A program made the translations under genes and the position numbers. From Streptomonospora litoralis (GTDB taxonomy: Bacteria > Actinomycetota > Actinomycetes > Streptosporangiales > Streptosporangiaceae), in NCBI RefSeq assembly GCF_004323735.1, contig NZ_CP036455.1, positions 2,041,101 to 2,105,100 on the forward strand: 64,000 bases of DNA, in the 5' to 3' direction. Positions 30,731 to 46,199 of this stretch are shown in pieces; position 1 is the first letter of the stretch; every line of letters starts with the position of its first letter. Below the pieces are notes generated by a model. That model ran no database searches and was not told where the DNA came from. It worked only from the letters and a program-made list of their open reading frames with translations.

Positions 30731-31027
30731 GCTCGACCGGTGCGAAAGAGCGCCGCGGCTCCTCACCCCCGGTGAAGACCGCGGGACTCGCCCACGGGGG
30801 TGGGTGGCAGCTCACCTCGGCGGCCGCACCTGCCGCTTTCCTCCGCTGTGGGGCCTGTCCTTCCTGTTCGTGCAGTCGCCGGTGCCGATGGTCCGATCGG
30901 CGGCGTCGGGGGGCGCCTGCGCTGCCACCGCCGCGCCGCTGCGAGGGCATCACCGCGGCTCCAGCTTCCTGCTCGCCGAGCCCGTGGAGTCGCCGGGCCG
31001 GGGCGCGGCCGGCGTCCACGCGGAAAC
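30731..31027. other. Non-coding interval before the catabolic cluster
   Basis: No gene is supported between the TetR stop and the first operator of the aromatic-acid cluster. The interval is GC-rich and without a clear terminator hairpin. Confidence 0.4.
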
Positions 31028-31071
31028 TACCCGAAAGGGTAACGCGACGGACCGGAGTATTTCCTTAGGCT
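31028..31071 (+). promoter_or_regulatory. Operator 1 plus -10 hexamer, LigAB operon
   Basis: CTACCCGAAAGGGTAACG contains the inverted repeat TACCC-GAAA-GGGTA (31028-31041). A -10-like TAGGCT begins at 31066, 31.5 bases after the repeat centre. This puts the repeat about 43 bases before the expected start of transcription, overlapping -35, as for class II activators. The same sequence and spacing recur at 38482 and 41666. First gene start is 31200. Confidence 0.65.
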
Positions 31072-31199
31072 TTGGGAACCAACCGGGAACTCCCGCTTCG
31101 CGGGCCGGAATCAGGGGTCTTCCAAAACGGATGCCAACAGGTGGGCGCTGCCATGCCGTGTCGGCGCAATACCAGCAGAGGAACGAGGAAGGTGATCCG

Positions 31200-31451
31200 G
31201 TGTACAGCCTCCACAAACTGCTGTGGGATATCCGCAAGGACCCGGACCTGGCGGAACGGTACCTCGCAGACCCGGACCCGATACTCGATTCCTACGGTAT
31301 TGCGGGCGGCGACCGGGCGGCGATGCGCGGACTCGACTTCAAATCCATGCACGAGCGCGGGTTCAACCCCTATTTGATCTACTTCTGCGCGATCCAGTTG
31401 AAGGTCGACCGCGCCGACTACTACGCCCAGATACGGGGGGAGAAGAACTGA
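31200..31451 (+). CDS. LigA-like small subunit of an extradiol dioxygenase
   Basis: 83 residues from GTG at 31200 with GAGGAAGG upstream. The helical domain (LLWDIRKDPDLAERYLADPDPILDSYGI, FKSMHERGFNPYLIYFCAIQLK) is the LigA fold of class III ring-cleavage dioxygenases such as protocatechuate 4,5-dioxygenase. It caps the active site of the catalytic subunit encoded next. The stop overlaps the start of that gene (TGATG), so the two are co-translated. Confidence 0.85.
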   Translation: MYSLHKLLWDIRKDPDLAERYLADPDPILDSYGIAGGDRAAMRGLDFKSMHERGFNPYLIYFCAIQLKVDRADYYAQIRGEKN

Positions 31452-32296
31452 TGGCCGAGACCACCGGACGTATCGTGGGTGCGTTTACCGCTTCGCACTC
31501 ACCCGGTATCACAGCATGGCCTGAGCGCGCGGAGCCCGCTAAGCGCGAAGCGGTGGAATCGGCGTTCACCGAGGTTCGGCGGCGAATCGACGAACTCGCG
31601 CCGGACGCGATCGTCGCCGTATCCGTCGAGCATTTCACCAATTTCCACCTGGGGAACCTCCCCGCATTCGCCGTCGCGACGAGCGACTCCTACCTCGGGC
31701 CGGTCACCGAGGAGATGGGAGAGTTCCTAAACGTAGCGCAGCGGCAGTACCCCGGGCACTCCGCGCTCGGCCGGCACGTGTACGAGTTCGCCCTCCAGTC
31801 GGATTTCGACCCCGCCCTGGTGGAAGGCGGACTAGAGTTCGACGAGAACTTCTGCGTCCCCTTCAAGCACCTCGATCCCGAGTCGAAGCACCCCCTCGTG
31901 CCCATCATCGTCAACGGGGTCAACCCGCCCTGGCCGACCGTGAGCCGCTGCCACGACTTCGGACGGATGATCCGCCGCGCGGTCGAGGCGCAGACCGCGG
32001 CCCAGCGGGTCGTCGTCGTCGCCACGGGCGGCCTGTCCCACTGGGTGGGCCTACCGGAGTCGGGCAAGGTCAACGAGGAGTTCGACCGCGACTTCATCGC
32101 CCGGTTCGAGAGCGCGGACGAGAGCCGCCTCCTCGACTACACCGCCGAGGAGATCGACGCAGCAGGAAACGGCGCCCACGAAATCCGGACGTGGCTCGTG
32201 GCGGCGGGCGCCGTCCAGGTGCCGTTCGACGTCCTGGCCTACGAGCCGGTCCCCGAGTGGCTCACCGGGACCGCAGTCGCGGCCGCGCGGCTGTGA
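31451..32296 (+). CDS. LigB-like catalytic subunit of an extradiol dioxygenase
   Basis: 281 residues from ATG at 31451. Fe(II) ligands of the LigB superfamily are visible: His16 in ASHSPGI and His61 in SVEHFTNF. The catalytic His197 lies in TGGLSHW, followed by a Glu-rich helix that should provide the third ligand. With LigA it should open a catecholic ring next to its hydroxyls (meta-cleavage). Standing before a hydratase-aldolase and downstream of a Rieske oxygenase in pathway order, it fits a naphthalene- or phenanthrene-like route, but the natural substrate is probably a carboxylated (hetero)aromatic because of the TRAP transporter. Confidence 0.88.
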   Translation: MAETTGRIVGAFTASHSPGITAWPERAEPAKREAVESAFTEVRRRIDELAPDAIVAVSVEHFTNFHLGNLPAFAVATSDSYLGPVTEEMGEFLNVAQRQYPGHSALGRHVYEFALQSDFDPALVEGGLEFDENFCVPFKHLDPESKHPLVPIIVNGVNPPWPTVSRCHDFGRMIRRAVEAQTAAQRVVVVATGGLSHWVGLPESGKVNEEFDRDFIARFESADESRLLDYTAEEIDAAGNGAHEIRTWLVAAGAVQVPFDVLAYEPVPEWLTGTAVAAARL

Positions 32297-32368
32297 ACCC
32301 GGCCGCCCCGAACCCGCGGACACCCCGCGAATCCGCCGTCCAACACTGAGCAGAAGGTGAGTGACCCC

Positions 32369-33415
32369 ATGAGCAGCAGGCTTCCCAAGGTGACCGGTCG
32401 CGACATGCGCGGCGTCATGGCCTATCCCCCTACCCCCGCTCTTGATGGAGCCGACGAGGTCGATGCCCGGAACACGGTGAATCTCGAAGAGACCGAGCGC
32501 ATGATCCGGTCCCTCATCCGCGACGGTGTGGACGCGATCGCCACCAACGGCACGCTCGGCGAGATGCACACGCTGACACTGGACGAGTGGAAGGCCTACG
32601 CCTCCTGCGTCGCCGAGACCGCGCAGTCGGAGAACCCCGACTTCCCCGTCTTCATCGGCGCCACCACCCTCAACACCCGCGACACCATCGAGCGGATGAG
32701 GTTCCTGGCCGACCTCGGCGTCACCGGGACCCTGCTCGGCCGCCCCATGTGGGGAGACATGGTCGCGCCGATCATGGAGCGGTTCTACCGGCACGTCGCC
32801 GAAGCGGTACCCGAGATGGCCATCGTCGTCTACGACAACACGGCCGCCTTCGGGGGCGTCATCCCGCGCTCCGTCTACCGCACCCTCGTCGACCTCCCCC
32901 AGGTGGTGGCGGTCAAGTACGCCGGCGGCGCTTCGGTCGGGTTCCGCTACCACAACGACATGGCCCACACGCAGACGAGCTTCCCCCTGATGCCGATCGA
33001 GACCGACTGGTTCCCGGCCTGGGAGATGTACGGCGAGGAACTGGCCGGTATGGCGTGGTCGTCGACCACCGCCATGGGCCCGGCCCCCGTCCTCGCGCTG
33101 CGCGACGCCCTGCGCGAGGGGCGCACCGAGGACGCCCGCTGGCTGACCGAGCGCCTGCGGTGGGCCCACGAGCCCTTCATCGTCGGCCAGGACTTCTTCG
33201 AGTTCGCGAAGTACAACATCCCCCTGGAGAAGATCCGCGTCAACGCCGCGGGCTACATGGACGTCGGCAAGAGCCGGGTCCCCTACACCGAGGACCTCGT
33301 TCCCGAGGTCCACCACAAGACGACGCACGAGCACGTCGAGCGCTACAAGCAGATCACCGCCGAGATCGAGGCGCGGCTGGGCTCCTCCTCCCCCCGGACC
33401 GCCGAGAAGGTGTGA
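32369..33415 (+). CDS. DHDPS-family hydratase-aldolase
   Basis: 348 residues from ATG at 32369 (AAGGTGAG at seven bases; the in-frame GTG at 32357 is an alternative). The TIM-barrel family signatures are GTLGEMHTL (61-69), VVYDNT (Tyr155) and the Schiff-base Lys183 in VVAVKYAGG. Length and N-terminus (RGVMAYPPTPAL) fit trans-o-hydroxybenzylidenepyruvate or carboxybenzalpyruvate hydratase-aldolases (NahE, PhdJ), which release pyruvate and an aromatic aldehyde after meta-cleavage. The aldehyde could then pass to the aldehyde dehydrogenase at 47594. Other DHDPS-family lyases are possible. Confidence 0.82.
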   Translation: MSSRLPKVTGRDMRGVMAYPPTPALDGADEVDARNTVNLEETERMIRSLIRDGVDAIATNGTLGEMHTLTLDEWKAYASCVAETAQSENPDFPVFIGATTLNTRDTIERMRFLADLGVTGTLLGRPMWGDMVAPIMERFYRHVAEAVPEMAIVVYDNTAAFGGVIPRSVYRTLVDLPQVVAVKYAGGASVGFRYHNDMAHTQTSFPLMPIETDWFPAWEMYGEELAGMAWSSTTAMGPAPVLALRDALREGRTEDARWLTERLRWAHEPFIVGQDFFEFAKYNIPLEKIRVNAAGYMDVGKSRVPYTEDLVPEVHHKTTHEHVERYKQITAEIEARLGSSSPRTAEKV

Positions 33416-33418
33416 GCC

Positions 33419-34735
33419 ATGGCGACGGATTCCGCAGGCACCCGCACCGAAGCGGGCCTGGAAGGCATCAGAGACGGCATCGCCCAGGGGCGGTTCCCGG
33501 CTCATGTCTTCAACGACCGGGAGATCTTCGACACCGAGCAGCGCCGCGTGTTCTCCAAGGCCTGGTGCTTTCTGGCCCACGAGTCCGAGATCCCCAACCG
33601 CGGCGACTACGTCACCCGCTACATCGCCGACAACAACCTCATCGTCGCCCGCGCCGAGTCGGGGGAGATCCACGCCAGCCTCAACATGTGCCGCCACCGC
33701 GGCAACATGATGTGCAAATCCGAGATGGGCAACGCCTCCCACTTCCGCTGCTCGTATCACGGATGGGTCTACAAGAACTCCGGCGAGCTCGTCGGGGTCC
33801 CCTATATGAAGGAGGGCTACGGGGGCCGGATCGACAAGCGCGACTGGGGTCTGGTCAAGGTGCGCACCGACACCTACGCGGGCCTGGTGTTCGGCACGCT
33901 CGACCCGGACGCGCCGACGCTCGAGGAGTACCTCGGGGGGTTCCAGTTCTACCTGGACCTCTACCTCAAGCAGGGCTCCTCGGGCAGCGAGGTGCACGGT
34001 CCCCCCGACCACTGGGTGACCGAGACCGACTGGAAGATCGCCGCCGAGAACTTCTCGGGCGACGGCTACCACACCCCGGTCGCCCACCAGTTCGGGTTCA
34101 ACCTGGGCTATTTCGCCTCCTCGGGCTCGACGCACAGCCAGGGCTGGGCCGCGAGCATCCCCGGCAAGGGGCACGGCATCGGGCTCGGCCACACGCCGGG
34201 CTTCCCGCCCTTCGCCGGGTTCCCCGAGGAACTCGCCGAGGAGATGCGCAGCAGCCTCTCGCCCGAGCAGGTCGAGGTCTTCTCCCAGACCCGGACCGCG
34301 GTCGGGACCGTTTTCCCCAACCTGTCCTTCCTGATGCAGCCGTTCAGCATCGTCCCCGGTGAGGCGGGTGTGCGGTTCGTGACCATGCGGCTCTACCACC
34401 CGATCGGCCCGGGCAGGACCGAAATGTACTCCTGGTGCCTGGTCCCCAAGGACGCCTCGGACGAGTACAAGCAGGAGGCCTACCGCGCCTACACGCTCGC
34501 CTTCGCCCAGGCGGGGACCTTCGAGCAGGACGACTTGGAGAACTGGGCGCGCGTCACCCGCTCCGCCGGGTCGACCATGGCCAGAAACATCGAGTTCCCC
34601 TACGTCATGGGCATGGACAGCACCCCCGACCCGGACTTCCCCGGGCCCGGACACGTGGTCACGCCCTACGTCAACGACTCCAACTTCCGGAACCTGTGGT
34701 CCCGGTGGTCCGAATACATGACCGGGCGGGTGTGA
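33419..34735 (+). CDS. Rieske ring-hydroxylating oxygenase, alpha subunit
   Basis: 438 residues from ATG at 33419, three bases after the previous stop. The Rieske [2Fe-2S] cluster ligands are Cys91-x-His93 and Cys111-x2-His114 (CRHRGN, CSYHGW). The catalytic iron ligands are His218 and His223 in GDGYHTPVAH, with the bridging Asp215. The family activates oxygen to form cis-dihydrodiols. The electron donors are the ferredoxin and reductase encoded at 43591-44989, in a different transcription unit that has the same operator. The beta subunit follows directly. Confidence 0.95.
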   Translation: MATDSAGTRTEAGLEGIRDGIAQGRFPAHVFNDREIFDTEQRRVFSKAWCFLAHESEIPNRGDYVTRYIADNNLIVARAESGEIHASLNMCRHRGNMMCKSEMGNASHFRCSYHGWVYKNSGELVGVPYMKEGYGGRIDKRDWGLVKVRTDTYAGLVFGTLDPDAPTLEEYLGGFQFYLDLYLKQGSSGSEVHGPPDHWVTETDWKIAAENFSGDGYHTPVAHQFGFNLGYFASSGSTHSQGWAASIPGKGHGIGLGHTPGFPPFAGFPEELAEEMRSSLSPEQVEVFSQTRTAVGTVFPNLSFLMQPFSIVPGEAGVRFVTMRLYHPIGPGRTEMYSWCLVPKDASDEYKQEAYRAYTLAFAQAGTFEQDDLENWARVTRSAGSTMARNIEFPYVMGMDSTPDPDFPGPGHVVTPYVNDSNFRNLWSRWSEYMTGRV

Positions 34736-34740
34736 TCGGC

Positions 34741-35256
34741 GTGGCAGCGACGAAACCCGACCGCGACACCGTTCTCGACGCCACCGAGTTCCTCTACCGG
34801 GAGGCCCGCGCACTCGACGAGCGCCGTTTCCGGGACTGGCTCGACTACCTCAGTGACGACGTCCGCTACGAGGTGCCGCTGCGGGTGACCCGGGAGGGCC
34901 AGGCCGAATGGGAGGTATCGCCGACCTCCAGGATCTTCGACGACGACAAGCAGACGCTCACACTGCGGGTCGAGCGGCTGGAGACCGACTTCGCCTGGGC
35001 GGAGCAGCCGCCCTCACGCACGCGCCACTACGTCGCCAACGTCGTGGTCGACCCCGGCGAGCGGGACGACGAACTCCGCGTGTCGTCGAACTGCCTCATC
35101 TACCGGAGCCGGGGCGACAGCATCGAGCCGAACCTCTACTCGGCCGCCCGCACGGACACCATCCGCCGCGTGGACGGCCGGCTGCTGCTGGCGCGGCGCT
35201 ACGCCGTGCTCGACCAGTCCGTCATCAACGGGCACAACCTGTCGATCCTCCTCTGA
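34741..35256 (+). CDS. Ring-hydroxylating oxygenase, beta subunit
   Basis: 171 residues from GTG at 34741; GTG at 34732, overlapping the alpha stop, is the alternative. The SnoaL/NTF2-like beta-subunit pattern is clear: EFLYREARALDERRFRDWLDYLSDDVRYEVPLR, TRHYVANVVV, SNCLIYRSRG and a closing ARRYAVLDQSVINGHNLSILL. It forms the structural part of the alpha3beta3 oxygenase. Confidence 0.93.
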   Translation: MAATKPDRDTVLDATEFLYREARALDERRFRDWLDYLSDDVRYEVPLRVTREGQAEWEVSPTSRIFDDDKQTLTLRVERLETDFAWAEQPPSRTRHYVANVVVDPGERDDELRVSSNCLIYRSRGDSIEPNLYSAARTDTIRRVDGRLLLARRYAVLDQSVINGHNLSILL

Positions 35257-35278
35257 CCAGCACCCAAGGAGCGCAGCT

Positions 35279-35557
35279 ATGAGTGAAGCCGTTCCCCGAC
35301 CAGAGGCGGAGAACCCCGACGACGGAGAGGTTCTCCACTACCCGCGCGACGGCGGCAACGACGGCCCCATCGTCGTGGCCAACGAATTCGTCGACGTCGT
35401 CGTCCGCAAAGTCCAGACCCGCAACGGGGTGCGGCTGGAGATCTTCTCTCCCAAGCACAACACCTGCGTCCGCTTCGACGCGGTCGCGCTGGACTGCCTG
35501 AGCTATCAGGAACCGGAGTTCATCACGTCCCTGCTGGCGCGGAGCCCGGCACCGTGA
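35279..35557 (+). CDS. Small conserved protein of ring-hydroxylating-oxygenase operons
   Basis: 92 residues from ATG at 35279 with AAGGAG seven bases upstream. It has no Cys cluster, membrane segment or signal peptide. The core (VVANEFVDVVVRKVQTRNGVRLEIFSP, VRFDAVALDCLSYQEPEFITSLL) looks like a compact beta-rich fold. Similar small proteins accompany aromatic oxygenases in actinobacteria and are sometimes loosely named dihydrodiol dehydrogenase, without clear support. Its stop overlaps the SDR start, suggesting a partner or assembly role. Function unknown. Confidence 0.7.
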   Translation: MSEAVPRPEAENPDDGEVLHYPRDGGNDGPIVVANEFVDVVVRKVQTRNGVRLEIFSPKHNTCVRFDAVALDCLSYQEPEFITSLLARSPAP

Positions 35558-36336
35558 ACGGGGGCCTGCACGGACTGAGCATGCTGGTCACCGGGGGCGG
35601 ATCGGGTATCGGGCAGGCCGTCTGCCGGCATTACCTCGCCCACGGTGCCCGCGTCACGGTACTGGAGAGGTCCCCCGAGCACGCCGACGCGCTGCGCCGC
35701 GGCGGCGGCGATCGCCTGCGGGTGATCGTCGGCGACGCCCTGGACGGCGACTCCCTGGCCGAGGCCCTGGCCGCCGCACGCGACGACGACGGCGGCCTCG
35801 ACCACCTCACCGCCTGCGTCGGGGTCTTCGACAACTACGTATCCGTGCGCGACCTCACCGCGGCCGAGTTGGAATCGGCGGGTGCGGAAATGTGGCGCAC
35901 CAACGTCCTCAGCTCGCTGAAGGCGGTCAACGTCTGCTACGAGGCGCTGAAAGCGGCCCGCGGCTCGGTGACGCTGACGCTGTCGGAGTCGGCGTTTCGC
36001 CCGCGCGGCGGCGGCGTGCTCTACGGCAGTTCGAAGTGGGCCCTGCGGGGGGTCGTGGACCACCTCGCGGCCGACCTCGCACCGCACGTCCGGGTCAACG
36101 GTGTCGCGCCGGGCGGGACCGGCGGCACGCGTTTCGCCGGATTGCGCTCGCTCGGCCAAGAGACGACGGCGGACCGGGTCGTCGGACGCGACGAGCGCAT
36201 CGCCCGCGGCAGCGCCCTCAAAACCACGCCGCGGCCCCAGGACCACAGCGGCGCCTACGCCTATCTCGCCGATCCCAGCGCCGCCCGGGTCGTCACCGGG
36301 ATCGTCATCAACACCGATGCCGGGAGTGCCGCATGA
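35554..36336 (+). CDS. Short-chain dehydrogenase, probable cis-dihydrodiol dehydrogenase
   Basis: 260 residues from GTG at 35554 (GTGA overlap). The NAD-binding motif is TGGGSGIG (13-20) and the catalytic residues are Tyr157 and Lys161 (YGSSK) with Ser144 or Ser146 (LSESAF). This is the position in the pathway of BphB/NahB-type enzymes that rearomatise the dihydrodiol made by the Rieske oxygenase to a catechol for LigAB. Substrate inferred from context. Confidence 0.88.
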   Translation: MNGGLHGLSMLVTGGGSGIGQAVCRHYLAHGARVTVLERSPEHADALRRGGGDRLRVIVGDALDGDSLAEALAAARDDDGGLDHLTACVGVFDNYVSVRDLTAAELESAGAEMWRTNVLSSLKAVNVCYEALKAARGSVTLTLSESAFRPRGGGVLYGSSKWALRGVVDHLAADLAPHVRVNGVAPGGTGGTRFAGLRSLGQETTADRVVGRDERIARGSALKTTPRPQDHSGAYAYLADPSAARVVTGIVINTDAGSAA

Positions 36337-38000
36337 ACGTGAGCGAGGAGTCCGCACAAAGAGCCGCCACCGGGGCCGAAGCGGTGGGGGAGACGCTCGC
36401 CGCCTGCGGGATCGACACCGTCTACGGGGTCGTGGGCAGCGGCAACTTCGTCGCCACCGACGCGCTGGTGCGAAGCGGGGCGCGGTTCGCCGGCGCCCGC
36501 CACGAGGCGGGTGCCCTGGCCATGGCCGACGCCCACTGGCGGACCACCGGGCTGATCGCCGCATGCAGCGTCCACCAGGGGCCGGGCCTGACCAACACCC
36601 TGACCGCACTCGCCGAGGCCGCCAAGAGCCGGAGCCCGGTGGTGGTCGTCGCGGGGGCGACATCGGCCGGAATGACCCGCTCCAACTTCTACCTCGACCA
36701 GGCCGCCCTGATCACCGCCGCCGGCGGGGCGGCCGAGTACCTGCACCGGCCCGACACGGTCGCCGCCGACACGGCCCGCGCCTTTCGCCGGGCACGCGAC
36801 GAGCAGCGTCCGGTCGTCCTCAACATGCCGCTGGACGTGCAGGCCTCCACCGCGCCTCCGCCAGAGGGCCGCGGCCCCGTCCCGGTCTTGGAGCCCGCGG
36901 GACGTACGCAACCGGAGGCCGGTCTCCTCGCCGAACTGGCCGAGGACCTGCTGTCGGCCAGCCGTCCCGTGCTCCTCGCGGGCCGGGGCGCATGGCTGTC
37001 AGGGGCGCGTGAGGCGATCACCGCGCTCGCCGACAAGGTGGGGGCACGCCTGGCGACGACCGCGGTCGTCAAGGGCATGTTCACCGGGCACCCCCGGGAC
37101 GTGGGCATCGCGGGAGGATTCTCCGGACCCGCCGCGGTGGAGACTCTGGAGTCCGCCGACCTCATCGTGGCGCTGGGAGCCACGCTCACGACCTGGACGA
37201 CGCGCGGGGACACGATCTTCTCCGGTCGGGTCAAGGTGGTCCAGGTGGACCGGGAACACAGCGCGCTCGGCCGCAACGCCCGCGTCGACGTCGGCATCGT
37301 CGCCGACGCCGACGCCGCGGCACGCGCGCTGCTGGCCGAGGTCGGCGACCGCCCCGGCGCAAGCCGGTTCGGCCCGGTCGAACGATCCGCCGACCCGGTC
37401 GCGCCCGGACCGCCCTCGACCGAGGGCACCTGCCATCCCGCCGGCATCACCGCCCGGCTGGAGGAGATGCTGCCCGCCGAGCGCACCGTCGTGCTGGACG
37501 GCGGCCACTTCATCGGCTGGCCGGCGATGGGCTGGTCCGTGCCCGACCCCGCCGGGTTCGTCTTCACCAGCGCGGGTTTCCAGTCCATCGGGCTGGGCCT
37601 GGGCGCGGCCGCGGGCGCCGCCGTGGCCAGACCCGACCGGCTCACCGTCCTCGCCACCGGAGACGGCGGGTTCCTCATGGCGGTATCGGAACTGGAGACC
37701 CTCGTCCGGCTGAACCTGGACGTCCTGATCGTGGTCTACGACGACCGCGCCTACGGCGCCGAGGTCCACCATTTCCTGCACCACGGTTCCGGACTCGACC
37801 TCGTGCGGTTCCCCGACGCGGGGGACATCGCGGGGATCGCCCGAGGCGCCGGCGCGCGGGCCGTGACCGTCCGGGAGCAGCACGACATCGCGCAGGCCGC
37901 CGACTGGTTCGCCCAACCGCGCGGTGTGCTCGTCCTCGACGTCCGGATCGACCCGACGGTGGTCGGCCCCTGGGCAGAGCAGGATTTCGCGGGCCACTGA
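36333..38000 (+). CDS. Thiamine-diphosphate-dependent enzyme (acetolactate synthase-like)
   Basis: 555 residues from ATG at 36333 (ATGA overlap). Three ThDP domains are visible: Pyr domain with the activating Glu58 (ARHEAGALAMADA), central domain (SRPVLLAGRGAWLSGA), and PP domain with GDGGFLMAVSELETLVRLNLDVLIVVYDDRAYG. In the last motif Asp replaces the usual Mg-ligand Asn, as in a subgroup of such enzymes. Homologues decarboxylate or ligate 2-keto acids. Here it could decarboxylate an aromatic or aliphatic 2-oxo acid produced by the pathway. It ends the first transcription unit; 620 non-coding bases follow. Confidence 0.85.
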   Translation: MNVSEESAQRAATGAEAVGETLAACGIDTVYGVVGSGNFVATDALVRSGARFAGARHEAGALAMADAHWRTTGLIAACSVHQGPGLTNTLTALAEAAKSRSPVVVVAGATSAGMTRSNFYLDQAALITAAGGAAEYLHRPDTVAADTARAFRRARDEQRPVVLNMPLDVQASTAPPPEGRGPVPVLEPAGRTQPEAGLLAELAEDLLSASRPVLLAGRGAWLSGAREAITALADKVGARLATTAVVKGMFTGHPRDVGIAGGFSGPAAVETLESADLIVALGATLTTWTTRGDTIFSGRVKVVQVDREHSALGRNARVDVGIVADADAAARALLAEVGDRPGASRFGPVERSADPVAPGPPSTEGTCHPAGITARLEEMLPAERTVVLDGGHFIGWPAMGWSVPDPAGFVFTSAGFQSIGLGLGAAAGAAVARPDRLTVLATGDGGFLMAVSELETLVRLNLDVLIVVYDDRAYGAEVHHFLHHGSGLDLVRFPDAGDIAGIARGAGARAVTVREQHDIAQAADWFAQPRGVLVLDVRIDPTVVGPWAEQDFAGH

Positions 38001-38069
38001 ACCGCCGGATGCTCGCGAGGACGTCCTGGTGAGGAACCCGCCGGGAGGTTGTGGAGCCGGACAGCCACT

Positions 38070-38253
38070 CAGGCTGCGGCAATGAGGCTCGTACGCGCGA
38101 AGCGCTGTGCGCCGGCTTGCCGCCGAGCGCACGCCGCGGCTTTTAGCCGGTGTCCGACTACCGGTGGCCGGGTTCCGGCTGGAGGGTGCACGGCGTGCGC
38201 GGCGGCAAGCCGGCTCGCTCGCTGAGCGAGCTGCGCCCCATTGCCGCAACCTC
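38070..38253. repeat. MITE-like inverted-repeat element, copy 1
   Basis: 184 bases whose ends are inverted repeats: CAGGCTGCGGCAATGAGGC on the left, and the reverse complement of the right end reads GAGGTTGCGGCAATGGGGC. Further in, both arms carry CCGGCTTGCCGCCG followed by GCGCACGCCG-like sequence, so the element could fold into a long imperfect hairpin. It encodes no protein. A second copy with the same organisation lies at 61908-62088. It sits between the ThDP gene and the TRAP operator. Confidence 0.75.
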
Positions 38254-38481
38254 TGCGGCTCAAGTCCGCGGTGGTTCGCGGAGGGTGCCTGGATACATGT
38301 CCGCCTGAGGGCGCACAAAGTTCAGCGCGCCCCAAGCGCGTACGCCGAACGCCTCAGCCCTCGTCGTCACCGTCCGCAGGCGACGCCCCCCGCCACCGTC
38401 ACGACATGCACGGACCTTCAACGGTCCGGACACGCGGTGTAGCCGTCGACTGCTGGTCACTGTGATTTCGGTCCTACTTAG

Positions 38482-38525
38482 TACCCGTTTGGGTCACGAC
38501 CAGCTCGGTGCGCGGTGCGTAATGT
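38482..38525 (+). promoter_or_regulatory. Operator 2 plus -10 hexamer, TRAP operon
   Basis: GTACCCGTTTGGGTCACG contains TACCC-GTTT-GGGTC (38482-38495). TAATGT begins at 38520, 31.5 bases after the repeat centre, exactly as in operator 1. The TRAP binding-protein gene starts at 38621. Apart from this site and the repeat element, 38001-38620 shows no gene. Confidence 0.65.
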
Positions 38526-38620
38526 TCCTCACCACGCTCACTGCGGCACGGGGTTCGGCCCTCGCCGCCTCTTCCGCTCGTTCCCACCGCTTTTCGCCGG
38601 CTATACCCCTGGAGATCGAG

Positions 38621-39691
38621 ATGTCCCGAAGAAACCGCTTTGCCGCGGCGATCACCGCGTCGGGCACCGCACTTCTGCTCACCGCGTGTACGGGCGGGGG
38701 AGGGAGCGCCGCCGCGACCGCCTCCGGCGAGGAGATCCGGTTGAGCTACGCGTTCTTTGCACCGGCCGCGTCGTTTCCGGCGGTGCAGATGGAGGAGTGG
38801 TCCGACCGGCTCGCGGAGAAGACCGACGGGCAGGTGACGGTCCAGACCTACCCGGGTGGAACCCTGATGGCGGCAGGCGACATCTACAGCGGTGTCTCCG
38901 CCGGCGCGGTGGACATCGGTCTGGACTCCCCGGCCTACGACAGCAGCCGGTTTCCGTTCTCCTCGGTGATCAACCAGCCGATCGGGATCGAGAACGCCCG
39001 CGTAGGCAGCGCCACGTTCCTCGACCTGCTGCTCGAATACGAACCCGCGGAGTTCGAGGACTACCAGATCATCACCGCGTTCACCACGGAACCGGCCTAC
39101 CTGCAAACCCAGACACCGGTGCAGAGCGTCTCGGACCTCGCCGGACGCAACCTCCGCAGCTCCGGCGCCACGATCCCGATGCTGGAGGCCCTGGGCGCGA
39201 CGCCGCTCAGCCTGTCCATGTCCGACGTCGCGGAGAACCTGCAAATCGGCGCCATCGACGGTTACGTGTCCTCCCGCGAGGTGCTGCGGGACTTCTCGCT
39301 CGCCGAGCAGGTCGGATACGTCACCGACTACCCCTTCGGCATTTCGACCAGCTTCGTCGCCGTCATGGACAAGCAGGCCTTCGAGGACCTGCCCGCGGAT
39401 GTCCAGCAGGCCATCCTCGACCTGCGCGAGGAGATGGCGGTCTACGCCGCAGAATTCCACGACACCCAGAACGTCGGAAAGGCCCTCGAATGGGCGGAAA
39501 GTGAGCACGGCGTGGAGACGACCGACCTGGAACCGGAGGTCCGCAAGGAGCTGGACGAGCGCATGGACCGGGTCACCGGCGACTGGGTCGCCCGGCACTC
39601 CGATGCGGGATTCGATTCCCAGGAGGTGCTGGACCGCATGCGCGAACTGGCCGACGAGCACGCCGCGGAACTCGGAACGGAGGCCCGGTGA
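38621..39691 (+). CDS. TRAP transporter substrate-binding lipoprotein (DctP type)
   Basis: 356 residues from ATG at 38621 with GGAG six bases upstream. The signal peptide ends in a lipobox (LLLTACTGG). The DctP fold is shown by LSYAFFAPAASFPAVQMEEWSDRLAEKT, QTYPGGTLMAAGDIYSGVSAGAVDIG, LAGRNLRSSGATIPMLEALGATPLSLS and LQIGAIDGYVSS. The Arg in GRNLRSSG is at the place of the conserved TRAP arginine that binds a carboxylate. This points to an organic-acid ligand, presumably the cluster's growth substrate. The gene overlaps dctQ (TGATG). Confidence 0.93.
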   Translation: MSRRNRFAAAITASGTALLLTACTGGGGSAAATASGEEIRLSYAFFAPAASFPAVQMEEWSDRLAEKTDGQVTVQTYPGGTLMAAGDIYSGVSAGAVDIGLDSPAYDSSRFPFSSVINQPIGIENARVGSATFLDLLLEYEPAEFEDYQIITAFTTEPAYLQTQTPVQSVSDLAGRNLRSSGATIPMLEALGATPLSLSMSDVAENLQIGAIDGYVSSREVLRDFSLAEQVGYVTDYPFGISTSFVAVMDKQAFEDLPADVQQAILDLREEMAVYAAEFHDTQNVGKALEWAESEHGVETTDLEPEVRKELDERMDRVTGDWVARHSDAGFDSQEVLDRMRELADEHAAELGTEAR

Positions 39692-40197
39692 TGACGACGT
39701 TCGTCGCTGCGACAGACCGGATCGCGCGCTTCCTCGCCCATATCGGCGGCGCGGCGCTGGTCGCGATGATGCTGCTGCTCATCGCCAACATCGTGCTGCG
39801 GACGTTCTCCGCCCCGATCCAGAGCACCTACGAGCTCGTCTCGATGGCGGCCCTGGTCGTCACCGCGATGGCGCTCGGCGAGGCCCAAGTCCACAAATCG
39901 CACGTGGCCGTCGACATCCTCACCACCAGGATGGGCCGGCGCGTCCGCACCGCCACGGCGGCCGTGGTCACGCTCGCCTCCGTCGCGCTGTTCGCCGAGC
40001 TGGCGCTGAGCCTGGCCGACTACGCACGCGACATGTATGCGACCGGTTCCGCCACCGAGGCCCTGGGCGTCATGCACTGGCCCCTGGTGGGCCTGGTCCT
40101 GGTCGGCGTCCTCGGCCTGCTCGCCGCCCTCGTCGGCGACCTCGGACGCGTCGCCCGCGCATGGCGCTCCCCGTCGGCCGAAGCGGACATCTGGTGA
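39691..40197 (+). CDS. TRAP transporter small permease (DctQ type)
   Basis: 168 residues from ATG at 39691. Four hydrophobic helices (ALVAMMLLLIANIVLRTF, TYELVSMAALVVTAMALG, VVTLASVALFAELALSLA, WPLVGLVLVGVLGLLAALVGDL) and length match DctQ subunits, which couple the binding protein to the large permease. 65 bases separate it from dctM. Confidence 0.9.
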   Translation: MTTFVAATDRIARFLAHIGGAALVAMMLLLIANIVLRTFSAPIQSTYELVSMAALVVTAMALGEAQVHKSHVAVDILTTRMGRRVRTATAAVVTLASVALFAELALSLADYARDMYATGSATEALGVMHWPLVGLVLVGVLGLLAALVGDLGRVARAWRSPSAEADIW

Positions 40198-40262
40198 AGC
40201 CCGCCGACGGCCCGGCCCGCCGGCCCCCGACTCTTCCTCCCCCGCGCTGAACGGAGCATCCC

Positions 40263-41555
40263 GTGACACCGACACTCGTCGCGATCCTCGGCATCGCCAT
40301 CATGCTGGGCATCCTCTTCCTCCGGATGCCGGTCTCCTTCGCCATGCTCGGTGTCGGCTTCGTCGGCGTCGTGATCATCGAAGACGTCGAAGCGGCGCAG
40401 CACCTGATGGCCGCGGACATCTACCGGCAGTTCTCCAGCTACACGATGGCGGTCGTACCGCTGTTCATCCTCATGGGCCAGATCGTCTTCCGCACGGGGA
40501 TGAGCGAGAAACTCTTCGCCGCCGCCTACACCTGGGTGGGGCACCTTCCCGGCGGCGTCGCCGCAACCACGATCACCGCGAGCATCGGCTTCGCGGCCGT
40601 CTCCGGCTCGAACTCGGCCTCGACCGCGACCATCGGCGCGGTGGCCCTGCCCGAGATGAAGAAGTACGGCTACAGCCGGCGGCTGTCCGGGGGAGCGGTC
40701 GCGGTCGGCGGGACGCTGGGCATCCTCATTCCGCCCTCGACCGCGCTCATCATCGTCGCGGTCCAGTCCCAGCAGTCCATCACCAAGCTCTTCCAGGCCG
40801 CCCTCGTTCCGGGGGCCCTCGTCGGCCTGCTGCTGCTCGCCACCGTATTCGTCATGTGCTGGTTCAAACCGGAGCTGGGGCCGCCCGGACCGAAGACGAG
40901 CTGGAGGCAGCGGTTCGCCTCCCTGCCCGGAGTGGTCCAGGTCGGCGTGCTCTTCCTCGTCGCCATCGGCGGACTCTTCGCGGGCCTGTTCACCCCGACG
41001 GAGGCGGCCGCGGTCGGGGCGTTCGGCGCCATCGTCCTCGGCCTCATCGGAGGCAACCTGACCTGGGCCGTGTTCTGGAAGTCGATCATCGAAACGCTGC
41101 GGATCTCGGCGATGGTGATCCTGCTCGTGGCCGGCGCCATCGTCTTCGGCCGGTTCCTCACGCTCAGCCGGCTGCCGTTCGACCTCGCCGCATGGGTGGC
41201 GAACCTGCCGGTCGCACCCATCGTCGTCGTGCTCGTCGTCCTGGCGATCTACCTGGTCGGCGGCGCGATCATGGACGCGCTGGGGTTCCTCGTCATCAGC
41301 ATCCCACTGCTGTTCCCGCTGATCACGGGATTGGGCTACGACATCGTCTGGTTCACGGTCATCGTCGTCCTGGTGACCACGATCGGCGCGATCACGCCGC
41401 CGGTGGGTGTCAACGCCTTCATCACCTCAGGGCTGGACACGTCCCTGGACATCGTGACGGTGTTCCGCGGGACGCTGCCCTTCCTGATCCCGTTCGCCGT
41501 GGCGTTGGCGGTCCTCATCGCCTGGCCGCAGGCGGTCCTCTTCGCCCTCGGCTGA
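40263..41555 (+). CDS. TRAP transporter large permease (DctM type)
   Basis: 430 residues from GTG at 40263 with GGAG seven bases upstream. About twelve hydrophobic segments follow. The DctM signatures are SIGFAAVSGSNSASTATIGAVALPEMKKYGYSRRLSGGAVAVGGTLGILIPPS and TPPVGVNAFITSG, which line the sodium and substrate sites. Length is normal. It completes a Na+-driven high-affinity uptake system for an organic acid. Confidence 0.95.
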   Translation: MTPTLVAILGIAIMLGILFLRMPVSFAMLGVGFVGVVIIEDVEAAQHLMAADIYRQFSSYTMAVVPLFILMGQIVFRTGMSEKLFAAAYTWVGHLPGGVAATTITASIGFAAVSGSNSASTATIGAVALPEMKKYGYSRRLSGGAVAVGGTLGILIPPSTALIIVAVQSQQSITKLFQAALVPGALVGLLLLATVFVMCWFKPELGPPGPKTSWRQRFASLPGVVQVGVLFLVAIGGLFAGLFTPTEAAAVGAFGAIVLGLIGGNLTWAVFWKSIIETLRISAMVILLVAGAIVFGRFLTLSRLPFDLAAWVANLPVAPIVVVLVVLAIYLVGGAIMDALGFLVISIPLLFPLITGLGYDIVWFTVIVVLVTTIGAITPPVGVNAFITSGLDTSLDIVTVFRGTLPFLIPFAVALAVLIAWPQAVLFALG

Positions 41556-41665
41556 GTCTTGCGGCCCCGGTCCGCCGGGGGCGACGGCACCGAGGGCCGC
41601 CGCCCCCGGGACTCGGCCTGCCTTCGGCCCGGGCCCGAGGAACCGCAGCCCGCAACCCGCGGAAC

Positions 41666-41710
41666 TACCCGACCGGGTGATGTTGCCGAAGCCACAGCCG
41701 GCCGTAGCGT
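41666..41710 (+). promoter_or_regulatory. Operator 3 plus -10 hexamer, AmAS-enamidase operon
   Basis: CTACCCGACCGGGTGATG contains TACCC-GACC-GGGTG (41666-41679). TAGCGT begins at 41705, about 32.5 bases from the repeat centre, one base more than in the other two sites. The first gene, of the amino-acid-synthesis family, starts at 41776. Confidence 0.6.
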
Positions 41711-41775: not shown

Positions 41776-42363
41776 GTGACCGACTCGCCGCTTGAGGTCC
41801 GAAAGACCTTCGCGCAGATCGAGGAGATCCGCTCGTCGGCAGGCAGATCCGACGGCAGGGAACTGCGCAGGGTCGCCGTCTGCGCGGTCGTGCGGAACCC
41901 GTATGCAGGACAGGGGTACGTCGAGGACCTCTCCGCGGTCATCGACTCCTCCGGCGAACTGGGGCGGTCCCTGGGGCTGGAGGCCGCCCGCCTGCTCGGG
42001 GAGCCGGTGGAGAGCTACGGCAAGGGCGGGCTCGTCGGCTCCCAGGGGGAGCAGGAGCACGTCAACGCGGCCCTGACCTCGGTCTTCGGCGATGCCTTCC
42101 GCGAGGCCATCGGCGGCGGGAAGGCCTGGATCACCTCCATGACCAAACCCGCGGCCGCCGGCGACGTCATCGACGTACCGACCGCCTACAAGGACGACGT
42201 CTGGGTGCGCAGCCACTACGACGGCGTGCAGATCCGCGTTCCCGACGCGCCCCACCCGGACGAGCTCGTGATCATCGGCGTGGTGACCAACCGCGGCCGG
42301 CTCAACGCGCGGGTCGGCGGCATGAGCGTCGCCGAGGCCGCCGCGAAGGGCGGGTCGCAGTGA
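41776..42363 (+). CDS. Amino-acid-synthesis (AmAS/DUF1185) family protein
   Basis: 195 residues from GTG at 41776 with AAGGAGG eight bases upstream. The sequence matches the family known as amino acid synthesis (PF06684): VRKTFAQIEEIRSSAG, VAVCAVVRNPYAGQGYVEDLSAVID, VESYGKGGLVGSQGEQEHVNAAL and a C-terminal VIIGVVTNRGRLNARVGG. Structures exist but the reaction is not known to me. The gene overlaps an enamidase-like amidohydrolase by four bases, so it may help open or hydrolyse a nitrogen-containing ring. Confidence 0.85.
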   Translation: MTDSPLEVRKTFAQIEEIRSSAGRSDGRELRRVAVCAVVRNPYAGQGYVEDLSAVIDSSGELGRSLGLEAARLLGEPVESYGKGGLVGSQGEQEHVNAALTSVFGDAFREAIGGGKAWITSMTKPAAAGDVIDVPTAYKDDVWVRSHYDGVQIRVPDAPHPDELVIIGVVTNRGRLNARVGGMSVAEAAAKGGSQ

Positions 42364-43559
42364 GCACGCTCGCCGTCACCGGGGCCGCAACCGTCTTCTC
42401 GGGCGACATCGACGCGCCCGTCGTGGACGGAGCGGACACCGTCGTCGTGACCGACGGCGTGATCAGCGGTGTAGGCGACGCGCGGGATCTGCGAACGGCG
42501 ATCGACGGCGCCGACACCGTCGTCGACGCGCAGGGTTCGACCATTGCGCCGGGACTCATCGACTCCCACTGCCATGTCGTGCTCGGCGACTACACGCCGC
42601 GGCAGAAGACCGTCGACTTCCTGGCCTCCTACGTCCACGGCGGGATCACCAGCGTGGTGAGCCCCGGGGAGATCCACGCCCCGGGACGCCCGCACACCGC
42701 GGTCGGCGTCAAGTCGCTGGCCATCGCCGCACGGACCTGCTTCGAGAACTTCCACCCCGGCGGGATGACCGTCCACGCCGGTGCCGTGGTCCTGGAGCCG
42801 ACGCTGCAGGAGCGCGACTTCGCCGAGCTCGAAGAAGCCGGCGTCGTCCTCGCGAAGTTCGGCTTCGGGCGCTACCTGGACCCCGCTGAAGGGGCCGACC
42901 AGGTCAGGTGGGCCCAGCAGCACGGCATCACGGTCATGTGCCACTCGGGTGGAGCGAGCATCCCGGGCAGCAAGCCGATCACGCCCGAGCACCTGCTGGC
43001 GCTGGCGCCCGACGTGTGCGGTCACATCAACGGCGGACCGACGTCGCTGGACCCCGACGGCGTCGACACGATCATGGACGAGACCGGCATGGCGCTCCAG
43101 CTGGTCCAAGCGGGCAACCTCAGATCGGCGGTGCGGATCCTCGAACGCGCGGCCCGCCAGGATGTCCTGCCCCGGGTCGTCATCGGATCGGACACGCCCA
43201 CCGGTACCGGCGTCATGCCCCTGGGGGTGATCAAGACCGTCGCCGAACTCGCGTCGCTGACCGGCCTGGACCCCGCACTCGTGTGGGCGGCCGCCTCGGG
43301 CAACAACGCCCGTACCTGGAACCTGCCGGCCGGCTTGGTCGCCGCGGGCCGGGCGGGCGATCTCGTCGTCATGGACGCGCCGTGGGGATCGACCCGCGAC
43401 AGCGCGCGCGACGCGCTCGCCGTCGGCGACATCCCGGGAATCTCCGCGGTCATCACCGCGGGCGGCGTTCGCGCACTGAGAAGCCGCAACACCCCCGCTT
43501 CCGCGCGCAGCGCAACCGTCGAACCGCGGATCCCGCACCTGGAGTCGAGCGCTCACTGA
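42360..43559 (+). CDS. Enamidase-like metal-dependent amidohydrolase
   Basis: 399 residues from GTG at 42360. Amidohydrolase-fold metal ligands are visible: His70-x-His72 (DSHCH), Lys166 (AKFGFG, candidate bridging carboxylated Lys), His195 (CHSGG), His222 (GHINGG) and Asp278 (GSDTPTG). The overall sequence resembles enamidase (1,4,5,6-tetrahydro-6-oxonicotinate hydrolase), a step in anaerobic nicotinate breakdown. It should hydrolyse a cyclic or linear amide or enamide in the pathway. Its presence is the main hint that the substrate contains nitrogen. Confidence 0.8.
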   Translation: MSTLAVTGAATVFSGDIDAPVVDGADTVVVTDGVISGVGDARDLRTAIDGADTVVDAQGSTIAPGLIDSHCHVVLGDYTPRQKTVDFLASYVHGGITSVVSPGEIHAPGRPHTAVGVKSLAIAARTCFENFHPGGMTVHAGAVVLEPTLQERDFAELEEAGVVLAKFGFGRYLDPAEGADQVRWAQQHGITVMCHSGGASIPGSKPITPEHLLALAPDVCGHINGGPTSLDPDGVDTIMDETGMALQLVQAGNLRSAVRILERAARQDVLPRVVIGSDTPTGTGVMPLGVIKTVAELASLTGLDPALVWAAASGNNARTWNLPAGLVAAGRAGDLVVMDAPWGSTRDSARDALAVGDIPGISAVITAGGVRALRSRNTPASARSATVEPRIPHLESSAH

Positions 43560-43590
43560 GCCTCGAACGACGTCACGGAGGTGACAGCAC

Positions 43591-43794
43591 ATGGCAATGA
43601 AGCTGGTCCTCGATCTGGACGCGTGCCAGGGGTACGCGAACTGCCTGATCGAGAGCCCCGGGTTGTTCGACATCGACGACGGCACCGACAAGGCGGTGCT
43701 GCTCGACGAGACCCCGGCCGAGGACCGCCGCGCCGAGGCCGAGGCCGCCGTACGAGGGTGCCCCGCACGTGCGATCTCCATCGAGAATTCCTGA
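43591..43794 (+). CDS. [3Fe-4S]-type ferredoxin
   Basis: 67 residues from ATG at 43591 with GGAGG nine bases upstream. The cysteine pattern is Cys12-x5-Cys18 (DACQGYANC) and a later CPARAI motif, as in the single-cluster ferredoxins that serve actinobacterial P450s and Rieske oxygenases. It is encoded two bases before its reductase and probably feeds electrons to the oxygenase at 33419-35256. Confidence 0.9.
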   Translation: MAMKLVLDLDACQGYANCLIESPGLFDIDDGTDKAVLLDETPAEDRRAEAEAAVRGCPARAISIENS

Positions 43795-43795
43795 C

Positions 43796-44989
43796 ATGCG
43801 GCGGATCGTCGTGGTCGGGGGTTCGCTGGCCGGGGTGCACGCCGCCGAGGCGCTCCGGGAGCGCGGGTTCGAGGGCGACGTCACGCTCATCTCAGCGGAG
43901 AACGAACTGCCCTACGACCGGCCGCCCCTGTCCAAGGAAGCGCTGCTGCGCGGCGTGGCGATGGAGAAGCTGGGCCTTCGCGCACCCGAGTGGTACACCG
44001 ACAACGCCGTGACCACCCGGCTCGGGAGCGCCGCCGTCCGGCTCGACACCGCGCGGCGCGCGGTGGTGCTCGACGACGGCACGCGAGTGGAATACGACGG
44101 CCTCGTCATCGCCACCGGTTCGCGGCCGCGCCGCCTGCCCAGCACGGAGAACGCCCCGCCCGTCCAGGTCCTCCGGTCGATCGAGGACAGCCTGCGGCTT
44201 CGCGAGCGCATGCGCCCCGGTCGGCACCTGGTTCTCATCGGAGCCGGGTTCATCGGATTGGAGATCGCCGCGACCGCCCGGCAACTCGGGCTCGACGTCA
44301 CGGTCATCGAGGTCGGGCAGGTCCCGCTGGGCCGTGCTCTGGGCGACGAGGTCGGGGGCTGGTTCCGCACCCTGCACGAACGCAACGGGGTGGAGGTCGT
44401 CTGCACGTGCACCGTGGAGACGATCGAGCGCCGCGGCGACGGCGCCGTCCTCACGCTGAGCAATGGGCGCGTCGTCGGCGCCGACATCGTCGCCGCGGGA
44501 GTCGGGGCGAGTCCGGCGACCGAGTGGCTCGACGGCAGCGGCGTCCAGACGGCCAACGGTGTGCTCTGCTACGCGGACCTGTCGACCTCGGTGCCCGGTG
44601 TGGTGGCGGCAGGCGACGTCGCACGCTGGTACAACCCGCTGTTCGACGAGGAGATCCGCGTCGAGCACTGGACGAACGCCGTCGAACAGGGGCGGCGCGC
44701 CGCCCACACCCTGCTGGGGCAGGGCGAGGCGTTCAGCGCGGTCCCCTATTTCTGGACCGACCAGTACGAGGCCCGGATGCGCTTCGTGGGGCGCGCGACC
44801 GCGGCGAGCGAGGTCGCCATCAAGGAATGCGACGACGACAGGCTCGTGGCGCTGTTCGGGCGCGACGGCCTGGTGAGGGGCGCGGTGTGCGTCAACGCGC
44901 CCCGTGAACTGGCCCGCTACCGCACCGCTATCCGTGACCAGGTCCGCTGGGACGACGTCAGCGAGAAGCCGTCGCGGATCGGCGGATGA
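43796..44989 (+). CDS. Ferredoxin reductase, FAD/NAD(P)H dependent
   Basis: 397 residues from ATG at 43796. FAD motif (RIVVVGGSLAGVHAAEALRERG), NAD motif (LVLIGAGFIGLEIAATARQLG) and a second FAD motif (VPGVVAAGDVARWYNPL) match oxygenase-coupled ferredoxin reductases (BphA4/ThcD type). The C-terminal domain (PYFWTDQYEARMRFVG) is also typical. It passes electrons from NAD(P)H to the preceding ferredoxin. Confidence 0.95.
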   Translation: MRRIVVVGGSLAGVHAAEALRERGFEGDVTLISAENELPYDRPPLSKEALLRGVAMEKLGLRAPEWYTDNAVTTRLGSAAVRLDTARRAVVLDDGTRVEYDGLVIATGSRPRRLPSTENAPPVQVLRSIEDSLRLRERMRPGRHLVLIGAGFIGLEIAATARQLGLDVTVIEVGQVPLGRALGDEVGGWFRTLHERNGVEVVCTCTVETIERRGDGAVLTLSNGRVVGADIVAAGVGASPATEWLDGSGVQTANGVLCYADLSTSVPGVVAAGDVARWYNPLFDEEIRVEHWTNAVEQGRRAAHTLLGQGEAFSAVPYFWTDQYEARMRFVGRATAASEVAIKECDDDRLVALFGRDGLVRGAVCVNAPRELARYRTAIRDQVRWDDVSEKPSRIGG

Positions 44990-45059
44990 GGAACCGGCAA
45001 CCGCCCGCGAGCCCTCTTCCGGAACGGCCGAAACGACCAACAGAACAACAGGAGTAGAC

Positions 45060-46199
45060 GTGACCGAGACCAAGCCTCAGGGCGACGCCCTGTCCATCAT
45101 CGAATTGTTTCCCCAGCATGAGGACTGGTCGTTGCAGACCATGCGCCTCCTCGCCCAGGTCGCGGTCGGGGGATCCGACCTGTTCGAGTGCGCGCGCACG
45201 GCGGCCCGTATCGGTTCGCAGACCACAGACCCCGAGGTCTGGCAGCAGGAGTGGAGCCGCACCGCCAAGGAGACCGCGGAGGCCGGCCGCGCCGCCCTGG
45301 CGGCGGGCGACATCACCACCGGCCGCCGCGCCCTGTTCCGCTCGATGAGCTACTGGCGGCATTCCGAGTTCTTCCTCGCCTCCACCGACCCGCGCAGGAA
45401 CGAGGCCTATACCGAGGGGACGCGCAACTTCCAAGAGGCGGCGGAGCTCACCGGCGGGCTCATCGAACGGATCAACGTTCCGTTCGAGGGGCAGACGATG
45501 GACGGCTACGTCGTCCGTCCCGACGCCTCGGGCCGCAAGCGCCCCACGGTGCTCATGCTCGGCGGCGCCGACTCGTGGGCGGAGGAACTGTACTTCCTCG
45601 GCGGAACCGAGTTCCCGGCCCGCGGCATGAACGTCGTCATGGTCGACACCCCCGGGCGCGGCAGCTCCCTGCGTTTCAAGCAGATGTACAGCCGCCACGA
45701 CTACGAGGTCCCCGTGAAGGCCATCCTCGACTTCCTGGCCGAGCGCGGCGACATCGACATCGACCGCCTCGGCCTCGCCGGAGTCAGCTTCGGCGGGTAC
45801 TACGCGCCGCGCGCGGCGGCCTTCGAGCCCCGCGTCAAGGCCGTGGCCGCGTGGTGCGGCACCTGGAGCATCCTGACGGACTTCTACGAGTACTACCCGC
45901 CGTTGCAGGAGCAGCTTCAGTGGTTGTCCGGATCGAAGGACGACGCCGAGGCCCGCGAGAAGCTCGCCCGTTTCACCCTGGACGGCGTCGCCGAGAAGCT
46001 GGACGTACCGGTATACGTCATGCACGGTGAGAACGACATCATCATGGACATCGAGGGCGCGCGCCGCTTCCAAGCGGCGCTGACGGTTGAGGACGTGACC
46101 GTCGACTATTACAGCGGGGCCGGTTCGCTGCACTGCAACTACGACTACCTGGCCGTCGCCGCGGCGAGGCTGGCCGACTGGATGGCGCACAGAATCTGA
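45060..46199 (+). CDS. Alpha/beta hydrolase of the dihydroxypseudooxynicotine-hydrolase/FrsA type
   Basis: 379 residues from GTG at 45060 with AGGAG five bases upstream. A helical N-terminal cap (1-120) precedes the alpha/beta core, with nucleophile motif GVSFGGYYAPRAA, an acid segment VMHGENDIIMDIEGA and the final His in GAGSLHCNYDY. Cap-first architecture and sequence style resemble 2,6-dihydroxypseudooxynicotine hydrolase, which breaks a C-C bond in nicotine catabolism, and FrsA-like esterases. It could act on a ring-fission ketone. Last gene of the third transcription unit; a terminator follows. Confidence 0.8.
   Translation: MTETKPQGDALSIIELFPQHEDWSLQTMRLLAQVAVGGSDLFECARTAARIGSQTTDPEVWQQEWSRTAKETAEAGRAALAAGDITTGRRALFRSMSYWRHSEFFLASTDPRRNEAYTEGTRNFQEAAELTGGLIERINVPFEGQTMDGYVVRPDASGRKRPTVLMLGGADSWAEELYFLGGTEFPARGMNVVMVDTPGRGSSLRFKQMYSRHDYEVPVKAILDFLAERGDIDIDRLGLAGVSFGGYYAPRAAAFEPRVKAVAAWCGTWSILTDFYEYYPPLQEQLQWLSGSKDDAEAREKLARFTLDGVAEKLDVPVYVMHGENDIIMDIEGARRFQAALTVEDVTVDYYSGAGSLHCNYDYLAVAAARLADWMAHRI

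Follow-up and report, generated by a model that had tools for sequence, protein, structure and literature searches.

The subject of this analysis is a 64,000-nucleotide stretch of the Streptomonospora litoralis genome, here called the window, and an aromatic-degradation cluster that it contains. Three palindromes in this cluster are probably operators of the cluster's own regulator, a protein with GAF, PAS-like, and GerE domains (LuxR/GAF, encoded by luxR). The operator has the form TACCC-N4-GGGTA and would be centered near -43.5, and the regulator bound there would activate three promoters, a reading held at a probability of roughly 0.85. An earlier sequence-only reading of the same DNA had placed these palindromes upstream of ligA, dctP, and AA_synth, each with a -10-like hexamer at a near-constant distance. 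The three sites, the hexamers, and the distances (Table 1) are exactly as described, and the gene names hold by Pfam.

The 15-mer pattern TACCCGNNNGGGTNA matches the window at starts 31028, 38482, and 41666, all on the + strand, against a mean of 0.02 and a maximum of 1 in 100 dinucleotide shuffles. The genome-wide scan proposed in the sequence-only reading covered 5,814,190 bases and returned 3 forward and 0 reverse matches, all in the aromatic cluster of the window; read backwards as a control, the pattern matches once. The pattern was derived from the three sites, so these chance figures are flattering, and comparison across genomes is the fairer test. With up to two mismatches allowed, the window holds 31 matches against 16.6 expected. 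Among these 31, only the three perfect matches are followed by a TANNNT box 30.5-32.5 base pairs (bp) past the center, and each of the three has a single TANNNT within the 50 downstream positions scanned. When the usual -10-to-start distance is applied, the operator center falls near -43.5. The -35 place is occupied by CGCGAC at operator 1 and CGACCA at operator 2 (17-nt spacing), both unlike TTGACA, and by TTGCCG at operator 3 (16 nt), a fair -35. A scan for consensus promoters and terminators detected nothing at the three operators.

The luxR gene is rare among close relatives. A protein search of 345 genomes of the order, at expectation (E) values up to 1e-30, found it in five: the window genome, two of the five other genomes of the genus, and two from other genera of the family, with 72-86% identity in the close relatives. 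All three operators are present within the cluster in each of the five. This comparison of orthologous upstream regions supports the proposal of the sequence-only reading that ring cleavage, uptake, and the AA_synth/amidohydrolase branch form one regulon. With a slightly looser pattern, G004 and G067 each have two more matches outside the cluster. The three genus genomes lacking a LuxR match have one stray pattern match in two cases and zero in the third.

The operators are conserved islands within diverged intergenic DNA. In five-way alignments, 18/18, 15/18, and 18/18 operator columns are invariant for operators 1 to 3, compared with 86/312, 105/466, and 83/176 of the remaining intergenic columns. 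Windows of 18 columns at least as conserved as the operator, itself included, number 6/321, 8/475, and 1/185. The spacer of operator 2 varies among the five genomes (TTT, AAC, TAT) while both half-sites are kept.

More distant homologues of the LuxR protein (E up to 1e-20) occur in 9 of 394 genomes of the class. The DHDPS-family protein of the cluster is found at 78% or more in seven class genomes, all within those nine; G364 has DHDPS at 44%. In one other family, designated f21, 4 of 22 genomes carry the luxR gene at 42-45% identity, with the core of the recognition helix unchanged, and the cluster is rearranged. An operator precedes dctP (TACCCGATYGGGTGA) and the ligA operon (GACCCRGWGGGGTAA) in all four; in the two genomes inspected, this operon begins with a COXG-family gene. 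A third operator, GACCCGTCRGGGGGA, lies between dctM and AA_synth in three of the four, the contig of G429 stopping short of that part. TAGCGT follows all 11 f21 operators, at 31.5 bp in ten and 30.5 bp in one. Across the 15 close and 11 f21 sites, the center-to-box distance is 30.5-32.5 bp in 26 of 26; for comparison, a TANNNT begins within any three neighboring positions of their flanks in 6 of 5,226 cases.

A profile trained on just the 15 close sites, with sequence as its only input, was run on 14 distant loci (235,819 distant bases) and the window. At E up to 10, it returned ten hits, which are the three window sites and seven f21 operators. It therefore recovered 7 of the 11 f21 operators and missed four, with no distant hit elsewhere. 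Two homologues of about 30% identity (G585, G524), also located near Rieske genes, have no operator under the combined rule, which accepts up to two mismatches and demands a TANNNT box 30.5-32.5 bp past the center.

The combined rule was applied to two further loci. A LuxR search (E up to 1e-15) of 72,556 plasmid records gave one match, at 43%, on pUSK13_1 of Rhodococcus sp. USK13, a plasmid that also encodes DHDPS at 79.5%, ligA, ligB, and AA_synth. Its 40-kb locus has 21 matches with up to two mismatches, and five of these have the box, against a shuffle mean of 0.14 and a maximum of 2 (100 shuffles); their box spacing of 30.5-32.5 bp follows from the construction of the rule. All five share the strand of the annotated gene that follows and stop 37-135 nt short of its start. 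The genes behind them encode a thiamine-pyrophosphate enzyme, an aldoxime dehydratase, LuxR itself, a cupin protein, and an alpha/beta hydrolase. Over 14 loci, the rule returns 31 hits, namely the five of USK13 and the 26 known sites that had served to define it. Transposase genes, IS110 and IS4 among them, are scattered through the plasmid locus (L070 1022-38943).

Thermomicrobium roseum is the next-best DHDPS record (59%); AA_synth, genes annotated as Rieske dioxygenases, and a GntR regulator are present as well. Its locus gave no LuxR, LigA, LigB, or DctP match, and its plasmid no LuxR match at E up to 1e-15. The rule has zero hits in the 29 kb, with a box at 0 of 10 two-mismatch sites; at three mismatches, two sites have a box, both within genes. 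The catabolic core here (L071 13149-29029) is a distantly related one, with the GntR gene and an ABC transporter in place of LuxR and TRAP.

LuxR/GAF is the best candidate for the regulator because it is the sole Pfam regulator in the conserved unit, because the operator occurs alongside it both in another family and on the Rhodococcus plasmid, and because no rule operator was found in the related GntR-bearing cluster. The operator is very probably its binding site, to judge from this shared occurrence in distantly related actinobacteria. The sequence-only reading had named the protein at 46451 as the probable activator. Against its candidacy stands G361, where LuxR is 40% identical and the rule fails.

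The LuxR/GAF protein is a GAF-GerE one-component regulator with a DfdR-like domain make-up. The GerE domain (PF00196, 60.3 bits, cut-off 23.5) spans residues 295-349, and this region matches the helix-turn-helix domains of NarL, GerE, VpsT, and DosR in PDB sequences. The GAF assignment comes from GAF_2 (30.3 bits, cut-off 28.6) and GAF (26.2, cut-off 22.4). The predicted structure (mean pLDDT 74.1) places a sensor (GAF) domain at residues about 10-175 and a second domain at 190-282, here labeled PAS-like from its predicted strands and helices. Query TM-scores of the 50 listed fold matches are 0.19-0.40. Pfam hits include no receiver domain, nor, at E up to 0.001, the autoinducer-binding domain of quorum-sensing LuxR proteins (acyl-homoserine lactone receptors). 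The 18 NCBIfam matches cover the helix-turn-helix region only and are all under their cut-offs. Within the helix-turn-helix, ENTVKQHLKR is invariant across 11 aligned cluster homologues.

In the proposed mechanism, the N-terminal GAF and PAS-like domains would sense a compound, with the aromatic substrate or a pathway intermediate as the presumed signal. The GerE helix-turn-helix, acting as a dimer, would bind TACCC-N4-GGGTA. Centered about 43.5 bp before the expected start, the operator would abut the -35 place, and the bound regulator would help RNA polymerase onto the TANNNT -10 box. Such help is suggested by the lack of a -35-like hexamer at operators 1 and 2 and the fair one at operator 3. 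Three units, of predicted extent, would be turned on together: ligAB with the DHDPS, Rieske, short-chain dehydrogenase/reductase (SDR), and thiamine-pyrophosphate genes; dctPQM; and AA_synth with the amidohydrolase, ferredoxin, reductase, and hydrolase genes.

Several observations weigh against this reading. In the group of the window, luxR has no such operator upstream of itself. The profile is unspecific when run on 13 whole genomes with 150 candidates scored in each: true sites rank 1st in G513 and G429, 4th and 5th in G440, and 7th in G362, and in G361 no true site is found. An unrelated hit with E 4.4e-4 appears in G005, which lacks LuxR. The combined rule likewise yields nothing in G361. 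On the Rhodococcus plasmid, an element at 36540 ahead of the Rieske gene is followed by a box at 24.5, an element at 31774 before the amidohydrolase operon has three mismatches, and both fail the rule; the profile recovers only one of the five USK13 sites, that of luxR. The parts of the rule were in earlier use, but they were combined only after the USK13 locus was fetched, for which reason the probability was lowered from 0.88 to 0.85. All genomes found with LuxR of at least 40% also carry the cluster, and the separation of LuxR from cluster comes from T. roseum as the single case, with a distant cluster and the plasmid rather than the chromosome searched. Finally, the sign of regulation is a matter of operator position and poor -35 sequences, from which activation is preferred over repression.

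Repression is the strongest of the alternatives, although improbable. Here the same regulator would bind the same operator and be released by its ligand. The sign cannot be read from sequence, and a LuxR-family NarL represses cyp108j1 through a palindrome in Rhodococcus P14, according to PMC7037279. Against repression, the operator does not cover the -35 to +1 stretch but precedes it. The -35 sequences of operators 1 and 2 are also unlike TTGACA, although that of operator 3 is fair. A strict position beside a poor -35 is the expectation for an activator. E. coli NarL, according to PMC7419079, activates ogt from -44.5.

A slightly lesser chance is given to a regulator encoded elsewhere in the genome that acts on the same cluster. 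Regulators often act in trans, the regulator assigned here is itself a reading of sequence, and a TetR gene (30068-30730) adjoins the cluster. Among the matches listed for the other four close clusters, however, none belongs to the TetR frame (summed bits under 200), on which ground TetR was rejected, and LuxR is the only Pfam regulator in the conserved unit. In USK13, the operators and LuxR share one plasmid, with one operator ahead of luxR, and the T. roseum locus, with GntR and no LuxR, is without a rule operator.

That the palindrome is part of an alternative sigma factor promoter is very unlikely. The right half-site and the fixed-distance -10 box do resemble a two-part promoter, and beyond the G440 cluster there is a gene of the sigma-70 family. 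A gap of 22-24 bp separates GGGTNA from the box, more than a -35/-10 pair allows, and this explanation was rejected on that spacing. Both half-sites are conserved, and the Pfam hits of the conserved unit include no sigma factor, if region-4-like matches that fall on the LuxR helix-turn-helix are set aside. An accidental likeness among three GC-rich palindromes has a negligible probability and was rejected; the pattern was indeed derived from the sites in hindsight, but the sites are present in all five genomes that have the gene, and new sites were found in two further lineages.

The regulator, the operator, and the catabolic genes may, on a balance tilting slightly in favor, be one portable regulon that moved among actinobacterial orders. 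The operator and its -10 distance would stay constant, and the promoter set would be rewired in each host. The promoter sets comprise three units in the window group, a COXG-led ligA operon in f21, and autoregulation with cupin and aldoxime-dehydratase promoters on the Rhodococcus plasmid.

The analysis offers a precise operator, hence a testable regulon, for an uncharacterized GAF-PAS-LuxR family of aromatic-degradation clusters in several actinobacterial lineages. The operator can help to locate more clusters and to narrow the substrate, because genes under it should share one physiological response; the aldoxime dehydratase and cupin genes behind the USK13 operator are a clue of this kind. 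The module is short and strict in layout, and once its ligand is known, it could be put to use as a biosensor or an inducible promoter.

Table 1. Operators, -10-like boxes, and cluster genes in the window
Feature	Position	Strand	Remarks
Putative operator 1, CTACCCGAAAGGGTAACG	31027..31044	+	before ligA-ligB; 18/18 columns invariant, 5 genomes
-10-like box TAGGCT	31066..31071	+	31.5 bp past operator 1 center; -10 region 8/9 columns invariant
ligA, extradiol dioxygenase small subunit	31200..31451	+	PF07746
ligB, extradiol dioxygenase catalytic subunit	31451..32296	+	PF02900
DHDPS-family protein, probably aldolase	32357..33415	+	start approximate
Rieske ring-hydroxylating dioxygenase alpha subunit	33419..34735	+	best NCBIfam model HcaE, under cut-off
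Ring-hydroxylating dioxygenase beta subunit	34738..35256	+	start approximate; open reading frame 34435-35256
Conserved protein, 92 aa, no family	35279..35557	+	
SDR, dihydrodiol-dehydrogenase-like	35554..36336	+	
Thiamine-pyrophosphate (TPP) enzyme	36369..38000	+	start approximate
Putative operator 2, GTACCCGTTTGGGTCACG	38481..38498	+	before dctP; 15/18 columns invariant, the 3 variable ones in spacer
-10-like box TAATGT	38520..38525	+	31.5 bp past operator 2 center; -10 region 7/9 columns invariant
dctP, TRAP transporter solute-binding protein	38621..39691	+	
dctQ, TRAP small membrane subunit	39688..40197	+	
dctM, TRAP large membrane subunit	40263..41555	+	
Putative operator 3, CTACCCGACCGGGTGATG	41665..41682	+	before AA_synth; 18/18 columns invariant
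-10-like box TAGCGT	41705..41710	+	32.5 bp past operator 3 center; -10 region 9/9 columns invariant
AA_synth family protein	41776..42363	+	PF06684
Amidohydrolase	42360..43559	+	
Ferredoxin, 4Fe-4S single-cluster families	43585..43794	+	start approximate
Ferredoxin reductase	43769..44989	+	start approximate
Alpha/beta hydrolase	44904..46199	+	start approximate
luxR, GAF-(PAS-like)-GerE regulator (LuxR/GAF), with the three operators as its proposed binding sites	46451..47539	+	Pfam, predicted fold, co-occurrence with operators

The conserved unit extends from ligA through luxR in a comparison of the five close clusters, among the matches listed. Pfam hits of its genes contain no regulator besides LuxR. 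An aldehyde dehydrogenase gene follows luxR and, among the matches listed, is matched only in two members of the genus. The 92-aa protein, whose gene separates those of the Rieske beta subunit and the SDR, has no Pfam or NCBIfam match and is conserved in four other close clusters and five distant ones.

Upstream of luxR, at window positions 46364-46384, a different palindrome is formed by CGTTTTCAAAACG followed by TTAATGTT; its conservation among the five close genomes is partial. The sequence CGTTTNNNAAACG is exact in three of the five and has its sole copy in the window here. Another regulator, one that controls luxR, may bind at this palindrome.

The next-best profile hit, G000:C1:292997-293040 (18.5 bits), was considered as a fourth member of the regulon and rejected; a near-identical copy occurs in G005, which lacks LuxR, and the site was left uncounted. 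The element shared by G000:C1:292997 and G005 (L068 1998-2041, L069 2007-2052) consists of RCCCGTCTGGGTCATGCG followed by CGTAGCCT and may be a different regulatory site.

In G361, the cluster genes from AA_synth to SDR are all on one strand. Its LuxR, searched at E up to 1e-45, is absent from all other genomes among 372 of its order. Upstream of AA_synth, CACCCGAACGGGGAC is followed by TAGTGT 30.5 bp past the center; it has three mismatches, was recognized by eye, and is uncounted. Two GAF-LuxR-like genes (40% and 29%) are found near this cluster, along with extra palindromes that share GATT...GGGTGACAC and are perhaps the operator of the second regulator.

GAF-LuxR sensors of aromatics and LuxR palindromes with a 4-bp spacer are already known. 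No description of the operator TACCC-N4-GGGTA was found in the open-access literature, the scope searched, in keeping with the remark of the sequence-only reading that it matches no described regulator; nor did this literature give a paper on a Streptomonospora LuxR with aromatics. The PimM group of PAS-LuxR regulators in Streptomyces also joins a sensor domain to a LuxR helix-turn-helix in actinomycetes. It recognizes a 16-bp palindrome in the -35 region, CTVGGGAWWTCCCBAG (PMC9774167), a sequence that differs from the window operator in its letters and its 2-bp center. Members of this group govern mainly antibiotic clusters. The window protein has, in addition, a GAF domain ahead of its PAS-like part.

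StyR, TodT, and TmoT share with the window system a LuxR-type helix-turn-helix, a palindrome with a 4-bp spacer, and control of aromatic catabolism. The operator of the TodT group is ATAAACN4GTTTAT (PMC5874301). These regulators have a receiver domain and are paired with a histidine kinase, whereas the window protein has GAF and PAS-like domains in that place, and the half-sites differ. E. coli NarL at ogt is a LuxR/GerE-type activator, with its site at -44.5 (PMC7419079), close to the -43.5 estimated here. It differs in its 7-2-7 site geometry, its two-component nature, and its Gram-negative host.

DfdR is a LuxR-type sensor of dibenzofuran with a GAF-like domain, known from Rhodococcus YK2 and Terrabacter YK3 (mentions in PMC6099782 and PMC7037279). 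Like the window protein, it belongs to an actinobacterial aromatic-degradation cluster and combines a GAF-like domain with a LuxR-type helix-turn-helix. According to those mentions, DfdR acts on the promoter of the initial-attack gene, to which the window promoters may be likened. The pathway is different, and the likeness is drawn from domain make-up and setting.

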